The notes beneath the pieces were generated by a model. It searched no databases. It was given only the letters and a program-made list of their open reading frames with translations, and had not been told where the DNA came from. DNA of 22,960 nucleotides from a virus. The stretch's first letter is position 1. Each line of letters starts with the position of its first letter. Below are positions 3,766 through 20,561 of the stretch, in pieces. The translations under genes were made by a program, and so were the position numbers. Location: IMG/VR virus record IMGVR_UViG_3300002231_000776, positions 13,699 to 36,658 of that record; one strand, given 5' to 3'.

Positions 3766-6700
3766 TTACGCCGCGTTCTTAAGGGCTTCCTGCTCCTGTA
3801 GCGCGGCTCGTTCTTTTTCCAACTCGATTTCTAACAACTTGATCTTCTTCTTATCAGGGACGAGATCCTCCATCTGCAAGGTATCCGCTGCTTCCCTAAG
3901 CAGTTTCGCTCTTCCAGGCACACCGAGTATTCTCTGATCTATCGGATTTGCTGTGACATTCAGGAGCTCCATTCTTTGCGCGGCCATCTGCTCCCTCAGA
4001 ATCATAGCCAACGCCCCTTGAGGTTGTATTTCCAAATCTCCCTTAATGGATTCGTCTTTGTCATACAGCATGTTCCATTCGTACTGGCGTAATACCGTCG
4101 GTCTCAATACTTCCCTGTCAATACGGCCAATAACCTTCTTTATTCCCCGCGCCGCACTATTCATCAACATTCCGAGACCGCGCGCTGTATTGTGTGTCGG
4201 CACTCCATTTGCACAAACAAATAGATGATTTTTTGCGTCGACTGTGATACATGTTGCTTCGCTTTCCCCGATATGCTCTATCCCGACAATGTAGCGACGA
4301 GCAGCCTTTTTCTCTTTTACTCGACTCTGTTTGCGTTCAAGATGGAATATACGTTCATTGGGGAGATAGAAATGAACTCTGTGATTCTCTTTCCTGAAAA
4401 TCTTACATCCTCGGATAATACCTTCTCCGGCTTTCTCCGTCGTGACACTTACGGCCTGAGCGCCCAGCGATACGACGAGTCGACGGAAATCCTCGACCAT
4501 TCTTTCAGAAGATGTCGACAGGAAGGTCTTGTCGCCCTCCTTGCTGCAACAACCGTCTATATCCATCAGGCCACGTAGTAATTCAAGCCGGACTTCTTTT
4601 GTGTTGTAGAGATAATCAGTTGGAATGAATTTGTGTATGCTCTTACAATCTAGTCCGTAGGAATGATAATCTGGCCGGATTCCTAGAACAGTTTGAGTCC
4701 AAGAATTATCATCAGGAGACTTGGGGTCTATTTTGCCAAGTTCATACGGTATTTGATCGAAAATCTCTTGATCTTCACTTGTAAGACGGCATCTGGCATC
4801 ACCATCACCCAATAGCGCCCCCATCGTATATGGGTCAATCTTTACATCACGTTTCGCAAATTCAACACATGACACTGTAGGGAGAGCCCATTTCGGACGG
4901 CACCCTTTTGGATTCCTCTCGTCTTTCTTGGTGTATCTAAATAAGCCTTTTTCAAGCAGTTCGGCAGTCGTATAGACATGCCAGTCACCTGGCCCGTTTC
5001 GCCCAGGATGGCTACTAACCGACCATCTATGCTCCACATCACAGTCGACATGGCTTCCGTCGCTGAATCTCATCCTGAATATATCGCGTTCTCCCTGAGG
5101 GAATACTGCTTCTACCTTTGCTAAAGAGCCATAAGTAGTACAGACTTTATCCCCAACTTTGATAGAACCCATCTCTACCGGGCCTTCTGGAGTAAGAAGC
5201 TCTTCGTAGTTGGCTAATGCCCTCCCAGCGCCAGCGGCTCGGTCATTTCCATACGAGTAAGCGGGGATTCCGGTGTAATCGTCAGCCAGCATGGCAAACT
5301 GGTCATAGACGCCCATTAGCTCTTTGGAGTACACCTTCGGCTGGAAGAAATCGATTGCTTTAAGCTGGCTCCGCGCGTTGTTTATGAACTGCCAGATTTT
5401 CCATGGGTGCATCTGGGTAATCTTCTCGCCCTTCGCTAAACGGTTGATATCGTTGATAACCACCTGAGGACCTGACCCGATTCCAAGGTTATTCACCATG
5501 GCGCGAATAGAAGCGTTGCAGATAGACTGTAAATCAGACATAAGCTCCGGTACGCCCTTATACCAGAACGAGCCAGGCACAATCCCCCAGCCAGTCTTAG
5601 AGTAGGGCCTGTGGCCTAGAGGATGGGGATTAAACGCCACATAGAGCAAATACGCCCCAACCTGTAGAGCGTTGATCTCGTACTCTTCCAGCGGCTTGTA
5701 GCGGTTTTCCCTTCAAATCCGTATACATCCCTCTATCAATCAGGAGACGCCCCTGCACGGAGCCCCAGAACTCTTTGCCCTCGATAAGCTCCCGGCCACC
5801 GGTCACTCTATCGCCCTTATCCTCAAGAATCGCCCGGATACTGTCTATCGTAGTCCAGGAACGTAGCCCTCCGCGGCCATAATACGTTCAAAACAAAGGT
5901 CAATCGCCGCAGAATCATAGCCAGGTAGCCCTTTCATGGCGAAAAGCTCTTTACGGGTGAATTTGATACGCTCAATCAGATTGCCCTCATTGCAATTCTT
6001 AGCGCCGTCGGAAGGATACATGTCCAGCGGGCTCGGAGCTTCGTAAACGTGTTTGGTGACAGTTTTCACCGTTGCGATCGTTCGACCACCAAAAGAAGCC
6101 TTTTTGAACTTTAGGACTTTTTCACGCCTTAGAACCGGCCCCTTTATGAATCCGGCCTTGAAAGTGGTCATATTGTGGATAAACTCATCAAACGCCTCAT
6201 CCCATTTGCCCTCGGCCATCTGGTCCTTAATCTTGCGCTCCATCTTCTCTGCGCGGTCCTCAGCCTCTTCTTTGGCGTCCTCTTCGACCTGATCTCGGAG
6301 CATATTCGCCATATCGTAGGCTTGGTCCTGATTCATCATCTCCCCTGATTCCTGCCACTGTCGCTGGAACTGAGCCATAACACGCTCTACAATGAGCTCT
6401 TCGGCAACAGGCGGTAATTCAGGGATAGGAGAGGGTTTGAGCTGGAAAGGGTGGGAAGAGAGCACATCACCGAGCCACGCCTCGGCAGCTCGACACTTAA
6501 CGCCCGTAAGGCCAAGAAAGACCTTTGTGCCGCCCTGGGCCATAATAGCGGCCAACTGCGTGGAAGAATACTCGTTATTTCGCTGATTGAGGTTATCAAT
6601 CATCTGCCTCTCAACCCCAGAACTCTCTCGATTTATGCGGTTTTCCTCGAAACAGTTGCTTATATGCGAAGAAAGGGTGACTATCGGGGTTACGGTCTGT

Positions 6701-6852
6701 TCTGATCGGGCCTGTTGTACTCGGCGCTCTGATTCTTGGATATCCTGATTGGAGGCGTATTGGATAAGGCCCATGCTCTTAATGCCCTGAGGCGTAGTGG
6801 CCCTGCTGGCGGTAGCATGCCTCGTAAAATCCTGTTCAGTGATTGGATACAT
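3766..6852 (-). CDS. Portal protein with in-frame intein and two compensating indels
   Basis: The portal is the dodecameric ring at the head vertex through which DNA passes, and binds TerL. The start at 6852 has CGGAG before it. The N-terminal part (to about 5868) includes an acidic coiled-coil stretch and the portal-like segment S-P-L-D-M-Y-P-S-D-G-A followed by L-I-E-R. The frame then breaks: a base seems missing at 5867-5871 and an extra G is present at 5709-5711. The intervening 53 codons read cleanly one frame over, and the original frame then resumes (L-L-Y-V-A-F-N-P-H-P). An intein fills 4189-5220. Spliced and corrected, the protein is about 684 residues, a normal size for this portal type. 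The C-terminal part has M-L-M-N-S-A-A-R-G-I-K and a charged coiled tail. Confidence 0.88.
4189..5220 (-). other. Portal intein, class 3 type, with LAGLIDADG endonuclease (344 aa)
   Basis: The intein begins at Ala (A-L-A-N-Y-E-E-L-L-T-P-E-G) after extein G-A-G-R and ends T-H-N before extein Thr (T-A-R-G-L). Block B is D-V-E-H-R-W, with the Trp two residues after the conserved His. Block F holds A-T-C-I-T-V-D. The residue after the splice site is Thr. Trp, Cys and Thr at these places are the hallmark of class 3 inteins, which lack the usual first Cys or Ser and form the branch on the block F Cys. Two LAGLIDADG motifs are intact (M-G-A-L-L-G-D-G-D and L-L-R-G-L-M-D-I-D-G), so homing activity is plausible. 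The open frame is unbroken. Confidence 0.9.
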
Positions 6853-7112: not shown

Positions 7113-9694
7113 TCACGTCCAACCGGAAGCATCTGCGCCCTCAACTGGCAGAGCTTGGCCGCTACTACCCGCTGTTTGGTTGCCAGAAGTAGCCCCGCCG
7201 CCGCCTTCTGCGTGCATGGCGATATACTGCAATCCGTCATGCGGATGAGAAAATCTATTCTTCTCGGGCTCGGTGGAATGATTGACGCCGCCCTGCGTTC
7301 TCATCTGGCGGTAACGGTAGCCGCCCTGGAATCCCTTACGGAGAATCCGACACCTCGGAGAGAGCATAAACCCGGGATTACCCTCAACCATTCGAAGAAG
7401 GAAACCGTCTACGGCTTCTCTGCGTGGCGTGAACTTATTGGTCCGGGCCATTTCTGTATGGATCCCCGCCGCGGCCAGCTCTTGCAAGCAGCTAATCTCG
7501 TTTGAGTCTGACGCCGTTTTCCCCGCTGGGTCTCCAACAGATTGCCAGTCCATGCCTGGGTAACGATTCTGGAGATACGGTTTAACAATCATCCGCGCAA
7601 ACTTCCGTACACCCATGTCCTCAACATACCGGTCTGGATCCATATTCAAGCGTTGCTTCTCAGGAATGCCGGCTACGAGCTCGTCAATCACTCTGAGCTG
7701 CCCTCTCATGGATTGCTGGGCTATTACGCATGTCGGGGTTAATCCGAAGTCAAATCCCAGAATTAGAGGAAGCCCTCTATGCGGGGCCAGTTCTTCTCTC
7801 GCGCAGTGAATATCGTCGTTGTAATCAGGGTAAATCGGCTTACCATCCATGGTGTTGCCGTAATTGCCCATCAAGAATACGTTAATCCATGACTCTTTAG
7901 CACCCGCACACTGCCGCGTCCAGTATTCGTACTTATCATTGTGGTTCTCTGCATTTTCAGCCGGAGGAAGGCCGGTCTGGCCCATATTCGCCACGTACAG
8001 CTGCGGATCGTTCTTGTTCTTCTTTGGCACCTTCAAGACGGAGGGAGGCTGCCGCCAGAACTGATATGTTTCCGGTTTCTCGACCTCAGCCAGGTTATAC
8101 CACCAGCTATCCTCGTCGGGCGGGTTAGTGTCCATGATGACCCCAGAGAAGGAACTCCCTCCGAGTCTCGGGCTCGGAAAACGGGATACACGGCCACCGG
8201 CCATGGTTACGTGGGTATGCAGTATTTCCGACGCCTCATTGAACCATACCATTGTGAACTCAATGGATTTCAGCTTCTTAACGTCCTTTTCCTCGTCCAG
8301 CGGGAGAAAGATTATCTCCATGTCCATGGTGGTCCCGTCAGATAACGGCATGATACAGTGACCGGAAATAGGAATCGAGGAGCTGATATGACATATTGAC
8401 TCTGGCACCCATTCCTGCCAGGTCTTGATTGTCGTCGAGATAAGCTCGGGGTTTGTTCGGATTGCACCAAAAAGCCTTACCCGTTACGCCTCACATAAAC
8501 CGTTGGGATAGGCATTTCTGCACAGTAAACCAATCCATCATATTTCTTTTTGTACCATCCGCGCTTCTGTCGATTATAGCTCTGACTGAAAAGTAGTGGC
8601 CTATATTTCTTGGGAGATAGCAATGTTACGATGTAGGAGACGTGTTTTGCCTACCCCAAATCCCTGTCTTATTCTTCTTTCCTCGCCGATCACGTCGCGC
8701 GATATTTGCAACCATACCACCTTTGAGCGCCATCTCTTGTAAATCGTCTGATAGTTGTTTTGAACTCGTGTATAACGTCTGCGTGATAGAATCCTTCCTG
8801 GTATGTCCATCCCCCATACGCAAAACCACGGATGAAGGCCCTATGATACTCAGGAGGGGCGTTGAGAATACTACGCGGAACACTCTTCTGATACGATTTG
8901 CCGGCCTTTCTCACAATATCCATAACTGGCTTATTCTTCTTGGTATGTTTGAATAAGAAGTTAAAACCACCTTCCTGGCGAGGGTTTTTTGTGAATGGCA
9001 TCTTAGCTTTTTTGCATATTTCGTGAATATAATCGATTCCATGTTGCTTTTTCTGAGTAAGGACTACTCGAGGGGTGGGGCGGTAGAATCCACATGAACC
9101 GTCTGCATACCAGAATCCTAACCATTCGACCTGCTCGATGGAAAGATTAGGTTTGACTCCCTTCCATTCTCCATCACGGCGAACGCGATAAGCCTTTGTG
9201 TTGTAGATATCCTCAGCATGAACCATATGATATTCGTCCCATATTTTCTTTCGGGTACGGAGTTTGCTCACCCACATCTGGTGATCGGGCGTGACAAGGA
9301 AATCCACTCCTTCTGCCTCAAACCCTATCATCTCGCCTTTGTATGGGCTTATGCTGATTTTGTTTGGCCGCTCGTATTTGATCTTCTCACCCTGGAGGGT
9401 AGCAACACGATCTGTAGGCAATACATTCTTGAAGAACTGAAATCCGCGTTTCTCCGTCAGTATCTCGGTCTGATCGTCGTAGCAGTTACGAACTACACCC
9501 ATTCGAGTCTTGCGAACGCCATTATATGCCCGCTGCTCCTTGCCGCGCATGAAGAGCTCCATCACGCAAGCCACACTCTTGCCGCTCCCAATATTCCCCA
9601 TGAGCCCACGATAGAAGGCGTTGGACCCATGGAACAGTGAAGCTGTCGGGCTCGATTTATACTCGATTATGAAATCTTCGAGTTCCGTGCTCAT
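7113..9694 (-). CDS. Terminase large subunit with intein, broken by several indels
   Basis: This is the packaging ATPase and headful nuclease. The start ATG overlaps the stop of the gene before it (ATGA). Walker A is G-N-I-G-S-G-K-S at residues 33-40. The ATPase Glu motif V-W-F-N-E-A-S-E follows the intein. The C-terminal RNase H-like nuclease has L-G-F-D-F-G, G-D-P-A-G and H-P-H-D-G-L-Q-Y with their acidic residues. An intein splits V-V-R-N from T-N-P-E-L-I-S-T-T-I-K-T-W. Indels are visible at 8811-8815 (extra G of the coding strand), about 8628-8634 (one base missing), 8480-8482 (extra G) and the splice junction near 8452-8460. All lie in or at the edge of the intein. Corrected and spliced, the protein is about 517 residues, normal for TerL. 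Confidence 0.88.
8457..9484 (-). other. TerL intein with LAGLIDADG endonuclease (about 343 aa, frame-broken)
   Basis: It starts at Cys71 (C-Y-D-D-Q-T-E-I-L-T) right after V-V-R-N, so it is a class 1 intein. Block B is V-T-P-D-H. LAGLIDADG motif 1 is L-G-F-W-Y-A-D-G; motif 2 is I-R-G-F-A-Y-G-D-G-H once one G is removed from the five-base run at 8811-8815. The C-terminal part, read across frames, gives G-L-V-Y-C-A-E-M-P, V-Y-V-R-R-N-G-K-A-F-W-C and then the junction. The exact last Asn is blurred: a lost AC pair at 8454-8457 would restore N followed by Thr. As written the intein cannot be made as one protein, which would kill TerL, so the indels are probably sequence errors. Confidence 0.8.
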
Positions 9695-12594: not shown

Positions 12595-13203
12595 TCAATC
12601 TGTCCCGTAAATCCCGCCTGGATGACTTTTTAGCTTCTTCTTGATTTTACGCAGCGCCCGGACCACGATCTGCCGAACACGCTCTTTACTGAGCTTATGG
12701 ACCTCCCCAATCGCGCGGAACGTCTGTTTCAGCCCAACACGCCTGTAAAGCATATCCCAGTATCGATCGTCCAGAATATCAGAGCAGAACCGCTTGAGCT
12801 CTCCCGAGTCAAACGATATCGGATACTCTCGATCATCAGTAATCATGTGAGCCCCCTCATTGTCCAGAGCCCCCAGCTCTACAGCTGGTCGGTGCCAGTC
12901 TTTCACGCCTTCCTTCCCAGACATCAGGTCTCTGCGTACTGGAGCCGGCAGATAGTCCATCTCGGTCCACTGGTCGCCCATGCTCCCTCTTATCTGCGAT
13001 CTGACCCATGTGCTGAAAACCGTCCCCCTTGACTCTTCGAACGTACGGTACGCGGTTATGATACCCTTCCGGCCCGACTGGAGCAGGTCCTCTTTGTCCA
13101 ATCCAGGACAAGGGCGCCGGTAATACCGGTAGTACACCTGCTTTACGGTTGTCTCGTACTGTTCAAGAGCATCCTGCTCGCTTTCTGGTTTCTGTCCCGC
13201 CAT
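12595..13203 (-). CDS. Sigma-70 family RNA polymerase sigma factor, 202 aa
   Basis: I choose ATG 13203, with GAGGGAG 3-4 bases upstream; an earlier in-frame ATG lies deeper in the upstream gene. Region 2 is residues 36-75 (D-L-L-Q-S-G-R-K-G-I-I-T-A-Y-R-T-F, then F-S-T-W-V-R-S-Q-I-R-G). A short linker has D-Y-L-P-A-P-V-R-R-D like region 3 of the FliA/SigB type. Region 4 is 148-192, with the helix-turn-helix T-F-R-A-I-G...L-S-K-E-R-V-R-Q-I. It should direct host RNA polymerase to phage promoters, presumably late ones. It lies ahead of the packaging and head genes in the same operon, so it may raise its own expression. Confidence 0.85.
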   Translation of the reverse strand: MAGQKPESEQDALEQYETTVKQVYYRYYRRPCPGLDKEDLLQSGRKGIITAYRTFEESRGTVFSTWVRSQIRGSMGDQWTEMDYLPAPVRRDLMSGKEGVKDWHRPAVELGALDNEGAHMITDDREYPISFDSGELKRFCSDILDDRYWDMLYRRVGLKQTFRAIGEVHKLSKERVRQIVVRALRKIKKKLKSHPGGIYGTD

Positions 13204-14440
13204 TATCTCCCTCTGGTTGTTTCCGCGGAACATACCGCATACATGTCATTTTCCGGTCAGTCTGGTGATAGCCTACCTTGCAAGTGTTGTGCATCATCAC
13301 TGAGCCAAGCCTATTCTCACAATCAAAGCACGGCGACACCTTTTCGTGCCATTCCTCCGGTTTCTTGGCCTCAGGCTCCTTGATCTTCCGGCGCTGCATG
13401 AAACACTTGCAGTTATGGTAGCTCTCTCGCCCATAATTCAGCCCGCAATTTGGAACAAGCTCAGGGTGCCAGAACATGCACTCTTTACACGGTTGCTCGG
13501 GGATCCCCCGCATAGCGTCGCAAACTATCTCATCGTGAAGGGCTTTGTTCCTTCTCTCGTACAGATCCGATACGCTCACCCCCCACCAGGGCGCCCCGAG
13601 AGCAGAAGCCGTCTTTTTCACGTATACCCGCTCTCCGGTCCGTTCTTTGAAATGATTACAGTGGTATCTCGGGTCATTCCGGCCATTTCCAAGCGTGCAC
13701 AGAATATCAAAACTGGCATGATAGCTCTCTCCGTACCGGCAATTATCGCAAATACCCTCGTATTTCGGTGTCTCCGGTTCTCCCGCCGCACCATCAGCAT
13801 TCGGCTCAGGTTTCACCATATCCAGCGGTGGTATCAATTCAGGGTAGTCAGCCTCCACTGCCGCCCACATCGACGCTATACTCGCATCTCGGAACTCTTT
13901 AAGCCATTTCGGTAGACCCCCCTCTTTCGGAGTATCAGCATTCGATTTTTTTTCAGTCCAGTCCGAGCACCATGAGTAATGCGGTATATTCAGCTTGTGA
14001 CCATTCAGCGCGCACCTTAGAACAATGAAGCCTGTGTCCTCGCTATTCCCACAATTCTTACAACAGTCTACAAGCCCTTCTGTAACCATCCAGTCAGGAG
14101 GCAGTTTTTTACCACTCTCAGCATCCGGCCATATTTTTTCACGACCCTCTCTCAGGGCTCCCTCGAAGATATCAGCAAGCGGTTTGCCACTCTCAGAAGG
14201 GGTAGACATATTTTTTGAGGACTCAGAAGGGCTCATAATATTTTCGCTACCGGGTCTACGGGAGAACCGGTACTTACTATCTGCCCTACCCGACCCCCTT
14301 TTTCCTGTGGTCCGAGGGGGGGTCTCTTTATGACGGTTGGAAAGCCACATCATCACCATGAAGAGAAAGAAGCACCCGAGCTGGAAGAGGGCTAAAACAA
14401 TGAGAATATCATGGCTCTGGATTGTGAATCTAGGGGTCAT
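13163..14440 (-). CDS. Membrane-anchored protein with four Cys modules, 425 aa
   Basis: A single membrane segment covers about residues 12-33. A charged, Ser/Pro-rich linker follows to about 120. Then come four copies of one module: Cys at 127/130/143/158, 231/234/248/261, 318/321/332/344 and 371/374/387/400. The pattern is C-x2-C-x(10-13)-C-x(11-14)-C-x2-aromatic (C-S-D-W, C-N-H-F, C-K-C-F where the third copy has an extra Cys, C-M-R-Y). Each copy probably binds one zinc ion or an Fe-S cluster. The linkers between copies differ in length and content. The start overlaps the TerS stop (ATGA); the end overlaps the sigma gene by 41 bases. I recognise no family. Confidence 0.7.
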   Translation of the reverse strand: MTPRFTIQSHDILIVLALFQLGCFFLFMVMMWLSNRHKETPPRTTGKRGSGRADSKYRFSRRPGSENIMSPSESSKNMSTPSESGKPLADIFEGALREGREKIWPDAESGKKLPPDWMVTEGLVDCCKNCGNSEDTGFIVLRCALNGHKLNIPHYSWCSDWTEKKSNADTPKEGGLPKWLKEFRDASIASMWAAVEADYPELIPPLDMVKPEPNADGAAGEPETPKYEGICDNCRYGESYHASFDILCTLGNGRNDPRYHCNHFKERTGERVYVKKTASALGAPWWGVSVSDLYERRNKALHDEIVCDAMRGIPEQPCKECMFWHPELVPNCGLNYGRESYHNCKCFMQRRKIKEPEAKKPEEWHEKVSPCFDCENRLGSVMMHNTCKVGYHQTDRKMTCMRYVPRKQPEGDNGGTETRKRAGCS

Positions 14441-15081
14441 GCGCTGTTTTCCTTTGATTTATCGTTATTATCACTGCTTGGTTGCGTTTTGGTTGCGTTT
14501 TCAGACGGAAGTACGGTCACATCAGCATCTATCCGCTTCTCAGGAGGAGTCGATCCACGCTCAGGAACACCGTGAATGTGGTAGTGGATCTGCGTCGCTT
14601 GGTCACCTGCTGCCTCTCTATCCTTGAACTTGCCAGTCTTATCGCCACCTTTGACGGCTATCTCAAGGCATTTATCACTAAAACGGTGGATTACACCGCA
14701 TTGTGAGCCTTTATGAAAGACAGGCTCATCCCAGCCTTTGACGCCACGCTTGTCTAAAGCCTCTTCCCTGATCTCCTGGCGAACACGCTCTCCTGAGGCT
14801 ACTGCTGCCTTCCAGATAAGCTCTAAAAGCTCGTTCTTGGCCTTTAACAGCCCTAACTCACTGAAAGCAAGGCCGGTCTCCACACTGGCCTGTCTGTGCG
14901 TTGTGCCGTGAGAGAGCAGATGTATGTATTTCACTACGCGTGTACGTACCTGAGGCTTTGTGTCGGCCAAAACCGGTCGCAACGCAGCTTTGAGGCTTTT
15001 CAAGTCCTCAGCTAAGAAGGCGGCTTCCTCGGGTGATAGGTCATCAGGATGAAGTATGGGAAGATGGTCAGAAGGCTTCAT
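14437..15081 (-). CDS. Terminase small subunit (probable), 214 aa
   Basis: TerS recognises phage DNA and starts packaging with TerL. Residues 45-85 contain a helix-turn-helix-like region (T-H-R-Q-A-S-V-E-T-G-L-A). After it comes V-R-Q-E-I-R-E-E-A-L-D-K-R-G, then W-D-E-P-V-F-H-K-G and I-H-R-F-S-D-K-C-L-E-I, the pattern of phage TerS proteins (helix, then x-P-V-F-x-x-G then R-x-Y/F-S-D-x-L). The last 60 residues are polar and low complexity. It lies about 4.7 kb ahead of TerL, with many small genes between. The start overlaps the HNH-like gene's stop. Confidence 0.65.
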   Translation of the reverse strand: MKPSDHLPILHPDDLSPEEAAFLAEDLKSLKAALRPVLADTKPQVRTRVVKYIHLLSHGTTHRQASVETGLAFSELGLLKAKNELLELIWKAAVASGERVRQEIREEALDKRGVKGWDEPVFHKGSQCGVIHRFSDKCLEIAVKGGDKTGKFKDREAAGDQATQIHYHIHGVPERGSTPPEKRIDADVTVLPSENATKTQPSSDNNDKSKENSA

Positions 15082-15671
15082 ACAATACTCCTATACTCTA
15101 ACTCTGTCGAATTGGGTGATTTGGCATGTAGCTTACGATGGTGTTTCAAGCACAGCCAACGAACAGAAAGGGGTTGATCGTAATCGTCATGATGAGCCTC
15201 AGCAGGAGAAGAGCCGCAGACAGAACATGGGAGAGGAATCAGTTTACCATACTTGATATGCGTTCCGACCAGAGCGCGAGCTTGCTTCTTTTTGTATTCG
15301 AGGGCTTCCTGTGGAGACATAGCGTCAAGAACGGCCTGTTTCTCGGCTTTTACACGCTCGAAGTAGCCTGGTTGCTTACGAGGGTCGCCGTCAGGGTAAT
15401 GATCGATACGGTATTTCTTGGTTTTCTTGAGATCACATCTCTTACAGCGTGGCATGTGACCGCTGGGCTTGGCCTCTACGCCTGTTGTGAGCACCCCTCT
15501 CGGCACTATCTCGTAGCCTTCTGGGGCCGGGATGAGTACGCATGCTATCGATCTGCTGGGAGGAAGGTTGAGCTTCTTCTCTCTTTCGCCAAACATCTTG
15601 AGAGCTGTATCGCCCGGCTGCATGTATTTGGTAATACCCTGCTTGGTCGTCTCCATAACTAACATCTTCAT
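15078..15671 (-). CDS. HNH-like zinc protein, 197 aa
   Basis: The C-terminal region has P-C-S-V-C-G, then A-H-H-D-D-Y, then R-W-L-C-L-K-H-H-R-K-L-H. This Cys2...His-His...C-x2-H-H arrangement is that of HNH-like zinc-binding proteins common in phages (H-H-D-D-Y and P-L-x-V-R-W-L-C motif). An earlier C-K-R-C may hold another metal. Two starts are possible: ATG 15671 with AAGGAG 6 bases before it (chosen), and ATG 15716 with another AAGGAG 4 bases before it, adding a 15-residue N-terminus. Whether it cuts DNA is not certain; many relatives are only zinc-binding. Confidence 0.65.
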   Translation of the reverse strand: MKMLVMETTKQGITKYMQPGDTALKMFGEREKKLNLPPSRSIACVLIPAPEGYEIVPRGVLTTGVEAKPSGHMPRCKRCDLKKTKKYRIDHYPDGDPRKQPGYFERVKAEKQAVLDAMSPQEALEYKKKQARALVGTHIKYGKLIPLPCSVCGSSPAEAHHDDYDQPLSVRWLCLKHHRKLHAKSPNSTELEYRSIV

Positions 15672-15740
15672 ACTACTCTCCTTCTCTTTTATCGGCCCCC
15701 ATGGACAGTACGCCATAACTCTCCTTAATGGTTAAAACCG

Positions 15741-19022: not shown

Positions 19023-20561
19023 ATGAGGTACGGATCTATATGTTCAGGAATAGAGGCCGCTACTACAGCATGGCACCATCTCGGATGGGAGGCTGCATTC
19101 TTCTCAGAGATAGAACCCTTTCCATCAGCGGTATTAAACCATCATTGGCCCAGCGTTAAGAACTTGGGCGATTTCACAACAATAAAGGAGGATGATTATG
19201 ACGGACGAATTGAGCTTTTGGTCGGAGGAACACCTTGCCAATCTTTCTCAGTCGCAGGCCTCAGAGGAGGACTGGATGATGAGCGTGGTAACTTGTGCCT
19301 CGAGTTTCTTAAACTTGCTGAACGAACACGGCCCCGCTGGCTGGTATGGGAGAACGTCCCCGGAGTCCTTTCATCCTGGTCATGTGACAAGGAAGGTCAG
19401 ATTCTTTCCAAATGCAGACCCGGAGGCAACGGATCAGAATGGGAACGCTTTGATAGAGAGCGAAGTGATTTCTCATGCTTCCTTGAAGGGCTTTCAGAAT
19501 GCGGGTATGGGTGGGCCTACAGAGTGCTTGACGCTCAGTATATCAGAGTGGACGGGTTAGGAAGGGCTGTCCCTCAAAGACGAAGGCGTGTCTTCGTTGT
19601 CGGATATATTGGAGACTGGCGACCTCCCGCAGCGGTACTATTTGAGCGCCAAAGCCTGTCGGGGAATCCTGCGCCGAGCAGAACGAAGGGGCAAAGAGTT
19701 GCCGGAACAGTTAAGGGTGGCTCTGGAGAACGTGGCTATCCAGACCTCAGCGACGGAAACGGAGGGGGATTAGCCACGGTAGCAGCTCCATTAAACACTT
19801 CATGGGCGAAACGATCACCCGGATCTCAGGCTCAAGAATGGGATAGTGAAAAAGGTAGCTATTTCGTTCCTGAAGTGTCACCCGCAATCAAAGCAAGGGA
19901 TTGCAAGGGGCCATCTTCAGACGGTACGGGTGATGGTCTACCGATAATTCCAGAAGCAACAGCGGTTCGCACAGCTCAAACTAATGCCAACGGAATTGGT
20001 GTAGCTGAGGAAGTTAGCCACACTGTAGATCAAGCACAAGGCCAAGCTATTGCCCAAGTCCACGACATGCGAGGAAACGGTGAGGGTGAAGTTGTCAACA
20101 GTCTAGTAGGAGATCACTTAAATCGGCCAACTGATTACACTCCGGTAGTCAGTGAGGGAGTTCAGGAAGTATCGCCTACGTTGAAGGCGGAATCAAAACA
20201 ACAGACGACAACAGGGCAAAATAATATCTGTGTCCCACTCGCCTTTCAACAGAACACCCGTGATGAAGTTCGCAAGATGGGTGGTGATGGGCAGATAGCA
20301 GGAGCATTGGCTGCTGAAGCTGGCATGAAACAGCAGAACTATATTGCATCAATGACAGTTCGCCGCCTCACGCCAGTAGAATGTGCTAGACTGCAAGGCT
20401 TTCCAGACAACCATTGTAGAATACCGTGAAAGAAAAAGAAGGCCGAAGACTGCCCAGATGGGCCGCAGTACAGAGCTTACGGCAACTCAATGGCCGTAAA
20501 TGTTATGCGTTGGATTGGTAAGCGAATCGACATGGTAGAAGCAATCAAAGAAATAAACTAA
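19023..20561 (+). CDS. C5-cytosine DNA methyltransferase with in-frame TGA
   Basis: The enzyme adds methyl groups from SAM to cytosine C5. Motif I is S-I-C-S-G-I-E-A near the N-terminus, motif IV is G-G-T-P-C-Q-S-F-S (catalytic C72), motif VI is W-E-N-V-P-G, motif VIII is P-Q-R-R-R-R-V-F-V-V-G, and motif IX is R-R-L-T-P-V-E-C-A-R-L-Q-G-F-P. The long middle with repeated S-P-A-I-K-A-R-D-type pieces is the target-recognition part. Codon 469 (20427-20429) is TGA. Reading on in the same frame gives P-D-G-P-Q-Y-R-A-Y-G-N-S-M-A-V and a TAA at 20561, i.e. motif X. The stop sits where relatives often have Trp or Tyr (R-I-P-W/Y). As written the protein lacks motif X and is likely inactive unless the stop is read through. 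GAGGGAG precedes the ATG. Confidence 0.88.

Follow-up and report, generated by a model that had tools for sequence, protein, structure and literature searches.

Phage DNA passes into and out of the capsid through a ring protein, the portal. Six portal inteins ('PORT') were described in cluster C1 mycobacteriophages (PMC5050341). Class 3 inteins are defined by a Trp at B:12, a Cys at F:4 and a Thr at G:5 (WCT), together with the lack of a nucleophile at position 1 (PMC3196547, PMC7664689, PMC5050341). In the structure of the MchDnaB1 intein, the equivalent Thr143 lies inside the intein and is part of a Cys-His-Thr triad. The literature searched, in which subscription papers were incompletely covered, described no class 3 intein in a portal. 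As far as could be checked, the mechanistic type of the intein presented here is already known, and its insertion site and host protein are new.

The analyzed window comprises 22,960 nucleotides of a 36.7 kb IMG/VR record of an uncultured bacterial virus. Its podovirus-type portal gene very probably carries a mobile intein of class 3, one of the less common types, which would splice via Cys324 and home into empty portal genes. The features of this locus are given below, with ^ marking an insertion point.

5845..6852, minus strand: N-terminal half of the portal (phrog_332, E 1.6e-11)
5630..5887, minus strand: stretch of the portal N-extein in another frame, with the conserved EGKEFWGSVQGRLLIDRG in the displaced frame, as in portal L013
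5221..5712, minus strand: part of the portal N-extein in the intein frame (phrog_1216 portal; 57% identical to L013)
4189..5220, minus strand: predicted class 3 intein of 344 codons, Ala1 to Asn344 (unbroken frame, intein profiles, 54-row alignment, confident fold)
5029..5031, minus strand: His64 (block B:10), invariant in the 54-row alignment
5023..5025, minus strand: Trp66 (block B:12, W of WCT), invariant in the same alignment
4804..4806, minus strand: Asp139 of LAGLIDADG motif 1 (GALLGDGD), from alignments and the PI-SceI-like fold
4555..4557, minus strand: Asp222 of LAGLIDADG motif 2 (RGLMDIDG), from alignments and Pfam LAGLIDADG_3 above cut-off
4249..4251, minus strand: Cys324 (block F:4, C of WCT), predicted first nucleophile, invariant in the alignment
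4195..4197, minus strand: Thr342 (block G:5, T of WCT), invariant in the alignment and placed by the published class 3 definition
4189..4194, minus strand: His343-Asn344, C-terminal junction with predicted Asn cyclisation, invariant in the alignment
4186..4188, minus strand: +1 Thr of the C-extein (predicted second nucleophile), the invariant Thr of GxGR^T in intein-free relatives
3766..4188, minus strand: C-extein of the portal with its stop codon (phrog_332; homologous annotated portals in HMO-2011-like phages)

The minus-strand frame 3766-5712 contains the uninterrupted insert, which stays open over 344 codons with all catalytic residues present. Ala1 is encoded at 5220-5218, Asn344 at 4191-4189, and the +1 Thr at 4188-4186. 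The intein ends read GAGR^ALANYEELL and VPTHN^TARGLGMLM, and the joined flanks read GAGR^TARGLGMLM. PHROG matches reached 4e-31 across the intein, and the profile of the intein C-terminal region (TIGR01443) scored above its own cut-off. With phmmer, the splicing blocks aligned with the class 3 intein MchDnaB1, with gp41-1, and with an engineered gp41-1 variant into which Trp and Cys had been introduced. A chance resemblance is therefore dismissed on the strength of the PHROG, TIGR01443 and phmmer matches to MchDnaB1 and gp41-1.

The host gene was identified as a podovirus-type portal by phrog_332 and phrog_1216 and by homologous annotated portals in HMO-2011-like phages; the Pfam SU10_portal match was below its cut-off. 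The L013 portal, which is 57% identical over the C-extein, is free of the intein and reads GAGRTLGGLGMLMNSAARG straight through the junction. Intein-free junctions were also found in the portals of Rhizobium phage RHph_TM3_14A (GAGRTASGLAML) and HMO-2011 (GVGRTASGISML). As a wide alignment of the portal C-extein lacked conserved stretches for scanning, the N-extein alignment was used for the harvest. All 80 further portals obtained in this way were empty at the exact junction, with a near-invariant GAGR^T(A/S)SGL, which makes the intein boundaries firm. The original prediction, made from the letters of this DNA, had placed an intein at 4189-5220 in a portal gene and had proposed a search for empty sites in related phages; its coordinates proved exact, and the sites exist. 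Its claim that the insertion splits a conserved portal segment also holds, with GAGR^TARGL in the window and an invariant GxGR^T in intein-free relatives.

Position A:1 of the intein is an Ala, so that the usual Cys, Ser or Thr nucleophile is absent, as had been predicted. A Cys or Ser start close to the boundary was considered and rejected, as none lies nearby and the 80 empty sites fix the junction. The motif 'EHRW' contains His64 and, two residues further, Trp66, while 'ATCITV' contains Cys324 and 'PTHN' ends the intein with Thr342-His343-Asn344. All six of these residues were invariant in the 54 aligned inteins, and in the alignment with MchDnaB1, Cys324 is matched by the Cys of block F (RCVEVD / TCITVD). 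The H-R-W and A-T-C-I-T-V motifs had been named from the sequence alone, and both were recovered. For the Trp/Cys/Thr set, the earlier reading was right on Trp and Cys and on a Thr at +1; the defining Thr is however Thr342 at G:5, within the intein, and not the +1 extein residue. Since the equivalent Thr143 of MchDnaB1 lies inside the intein, the choice of the +1 Thr is considered a slip. Trp66, Cys324 and Thr342 map to B:12, F:4 and G:5 respectively, and with every defining sequence feature present, the insert is by sequence a well-formed class 3 intein that is predicted to splice.

AlphaFold2 with the 54-row alignment modelled the intein with a pLDDT of 96.1 and a pTM of 0.91. In Foldseek searches, the full-length model matched PI-SceI (E 1e-16), its splicing part matched the class 3 DnaB inteins 6rix, 6riy and 6bs8, and its nuclease part matched I-DmoI. 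The intein is thus confidently modelled as a Hint fold joined to a LAGLIDADG fold. Endonuclease blocks C, D, E and H are all present, D and H as 'KFIP' and 'SLG', and the two full LAGLIDADG motifs that had been claimed were both found with their catalytic Asp. Motif 2 contains Asp220 and Asp222; Asp139 and Asp222 are what we take to be the counterparts of the PI-SceI catalytic acids. Five same-site inteins (L019, L020, L099, L100, and L101) carry an Asn at the Asp139 position (GNGD or GNSD), which indicates that endonuclease activity is not kept family-wide and that some members may have a weakened endonuclease. As Asp139 is kept where several portal relatives have Asn, the window copy belongs to the apparently intact endonucleases. 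It looks able to copy itself into other portal genes, and homing is predicted.

The order of the splicing steps is taken from the class 3 literature. After translation, Cys324, assisted by His64 and Thr342, would attack the bond between Arg and Ala1 directly, which would yield the class-specific branched thioester. The N-extein would then be transferred to the +1 Thr, Asn344 would cyclise with the help of His343, and the exteins would ligate as GAGR-TARGL. On the DNA, homing would proceed through cleavage of empty portal genes by the LAGLIDADG domain at GAGR^T(A/S)SGL, by which the intein would be copied into these genes.

The position of the insert within the portal was assessed on a model of the intein-free L013 portal, which matches the portals of cyanophage A4, SU10, N4, PaP3, and T7 and reached a pLDDT of 73, a moderate confidence that falls below 50 at the junction. 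The junction falls between residues 549 and 550, just as a helix of 41 residues (551 to 591) begins, in a flexible part that is modelled with low confidence. The T7 portal has its tunnel loop between alpha9 and the valve helix alpha10, which is 39 residues long; Arg368 of the loop lines the channel (PMC6702177). By comparison with T7, we infer that the insertion point falls within the tunnel loop/valve region, beside the invariant Arg and just before the 41-residue valve helix; given the confidence of the model at this point, the placement is one of analogy. Since the insertion adjoins an invariant Arg at this predicted loop, an unspliced portal would be expected to form no working channel, and infectivity would need splicing. 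With the insert at what is predicted to be the portal valve, splicing would serve as a checkpoint on DNA packaging.

Nine other lineages carry an intein at this very portal junction (L002/L021, L018, L019, L020, L022, L099, L100/L101, L102, and L103), of which L022 is cut off by the contig end. A further one occurs in L098 (ONVK01000004.1), a contig of an uncultured Lentisphaerae MAG and the sole hit in the genome collection. Its match statistics equal those of L020, and Lentisphaerae are a possible host phylum for this relative. The relatives found all carry W, C and THN. In a tree that covers class 3 inteins only, namely the portal inteins and 75 others, the portal inteins form one clade (ultrafast bootstrap 100, SH-aLRT 97). 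The best identity to the window intein in a tblastn search of 50,697 phage records was 33.8%, so that these records hold no close member of the portal group. Class 3 inteins had been described as mostly belonging to phage replication proteins such as DnaB. Helicases are indeed among the hosts, but the spread is wider: in the first harvest, 60 of 70 distinct inteins follow a terminal GK and precede a Thr or Ser, which are Walker A motifs of varied ATPases including recombinases and terminases.

The same-site intein of L103 (1525-2571, plus strand) starts with Cys1 and also carries Trp B:12, Cys F:4 and THN; its long branch is basal in the portal clade. By these residues it is a possible natural class 1/class 3 hybrid, which, if true, bears on how class 3 splicing evolved. 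A Cys start with WCT was also observed in L080 and L083 at Walker A sites. In L019 (1064-1087, plus strand), the portal intein is well conserved apart from an in-frame TAG at codon 6, for which a read error, damage and a reassigned stop codon are the alternatives.

The intein might have reached these portals by transfer or by descent. Within the portal group, inteins share 50-69% identity once L103 (36-43%) and two close pairs (L019/L020, L100/L101) are set aside; for the portals, identity is often only 24-45%. The inteins of L100 and L022 are 69% identical against 41% for their portals, and those of the window and L020 54% against 24-26%. The portal of the window resembles the intein-free L013 and L123 no less than it does intein-bearing portals. 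The window intein has a G+C of 0.46 and a GC3 of 0.41, compared to 0.49-0.52 and 0.56-0.64 in the flanking portal, and the intein was lower in G+C than the upstream flank in 7 of 7 relatives compared. One ancient insertion in a portal ancestor, passed on vertically without recent homing, would fit the correlation of intein and extein identities (Mantel r 0.49, p 0.005, 9 phages) and the similar divergence of both parts in L099/L102 and L019/L020. It is nevertheless unlikely, as several inteins are far closer to each other than their portals are, the window portal is no further from intein-free than from intein-bearing relatives, and the intein differs in base composition from its gene. The inteins being more alike than their portals and distinct in composition favours horizontal spread with some vertical descent, with the direction of transfer inferred. 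The intein is under protein-level constraint; between L019 and L020, dN was 0.13 and synonymous sites were saturated, which precludes a dN/dS ratio. A jump of the portal intein from a Walker A site is plausible. With a Walker A junction DNA profile, the portal junction of 79 empty portal genes fell in the top 2% (median) of in-frame positions, and its median rank was 6 of about 64 when only Ser/Thr/Cys +1 positions were counted. As this second rank is weaker, Walker A mimicry is put forward with reserve. That a Walker A class 3 intein entered the non-ATPase portal gene, with GAGR^T mimicking GxGK^T/S in protein and DNA, and then spread horizontally has somewhat less than an even chance.

The record itself raises the question of whether the intein is a remnant. 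The portal frame is lost near 5870 and regained near 5700, upstream of the intein, and conserved portal sequence is kept in the displaced frame. As the frame leaves and returns between these points, the portal ORF is not continuous in this record, and the window copy is possibly not expressed in full length. TerL holds a second intein, of the class 1 type, at about 8470-9484 on the minus strand (VVRN^CYDDQTEILTEKRG..., then TerL TNPELISTTIKTW). Inteins starting with CYDDQTEIL follow the same or a near-identical VRN motif of TerL in L209-L218 and L221; the TerL of L002 is empty at that site. The TerL intein is broken by several frame changes, at about 8480-8840, while the class 3 intein is unbroken. 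Such breaks would suit an intein remnant that has lost splicing and homing and lies in a defective gene or a prophage under decay. This is very unlikely for an intein open over 344 codons with all catalytic residues, all the more as the inteins of L002, L018, L099, L100 and L102 lie in continuous open frames of more than 1,000 codons. The breaks occur only outside the class 3 intein, and read or assembly error fits them at least as well as real damage and is the more probable of the two. Least likely of all, to the point of being scarcely credible, is a class 1 or 2 type without a first nucleophile, in which the +1 Thr attacks directly as in KlbA-like class 2 inteins and Trp, Cys and Thr coincide by accident. 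Ala1 is also a class 2 feature, and class 1 inteins with a Cys at F:4 exist (PMC3196547). Against this, WCT, the block B His and THN are all invariant in 54 relatives, and among solved structures, class 3 DnaB inteins are the nearest relatives that share the splicing blocks.

Further genes were identified in the window. A phage-encoded sigma factor with sigma-70 regions 2 and 4 lies at 12595-13233 (minus strand), and a C-5 cytosine DNA methyltransferase, whose match falls into three separate stretches, at 19023-20429 (plus strand). A terminase small subunit candidate (phrog_4044) was found at 14437-15081, and an endonuclease-type gene (phrog_2340) at 15078-15716 (minus strand) lies directly downstream of its start region.

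With this intein, a capsid-channel protein with a new insertion site joins the known hosts of class 3 inteins, and the small same-site family with its many empty alleles offers a system in which intein homing and loss can be studied, as can a possible transition between class 1 and class 3. The class 3 DnaB inteins of M. chimaera (DnaB1, 6rix/6riy) and M. smegmatis (6bs8) share the splicing blocks, WCT, the THN end and the Hint fold. The solved DnaB inteins are however short (about 130-145 residues) and lie in a helicase, while the window intein has a full endonuclease domain and lies in a portal. The Walker A ATPase inteins (L003-L008, L023-L097), whose hosts include terminases and helicases of Klebsiella, Vibrio, and Brevundimonas phages, are 28-41% identical, with the same WCT, the same length and a LAGLIDADG domain; they occur at GK^T/S of P-loop enzymes, in contrast to GAGR^T of a structural protein. 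The portals of HMO-2011-like and Rhizobium RHph_TM phages have homologous exteins and share the invariant GxGR^T, but unlike the window contain no intein at this site in the examined records. Among the mycobacteriophages examined for portal inteins (Alice, Colt, and LifeSavor), Colt and LifeSavor of cluster C1 also carry inteins in portal genes. By sequence they belong to class 1, with Cys1 at the start and SHN^T and SKN^C at the end. Their insertion positions differ, as does the portal family, and the window intein with its Ala1 does not belong to their group.
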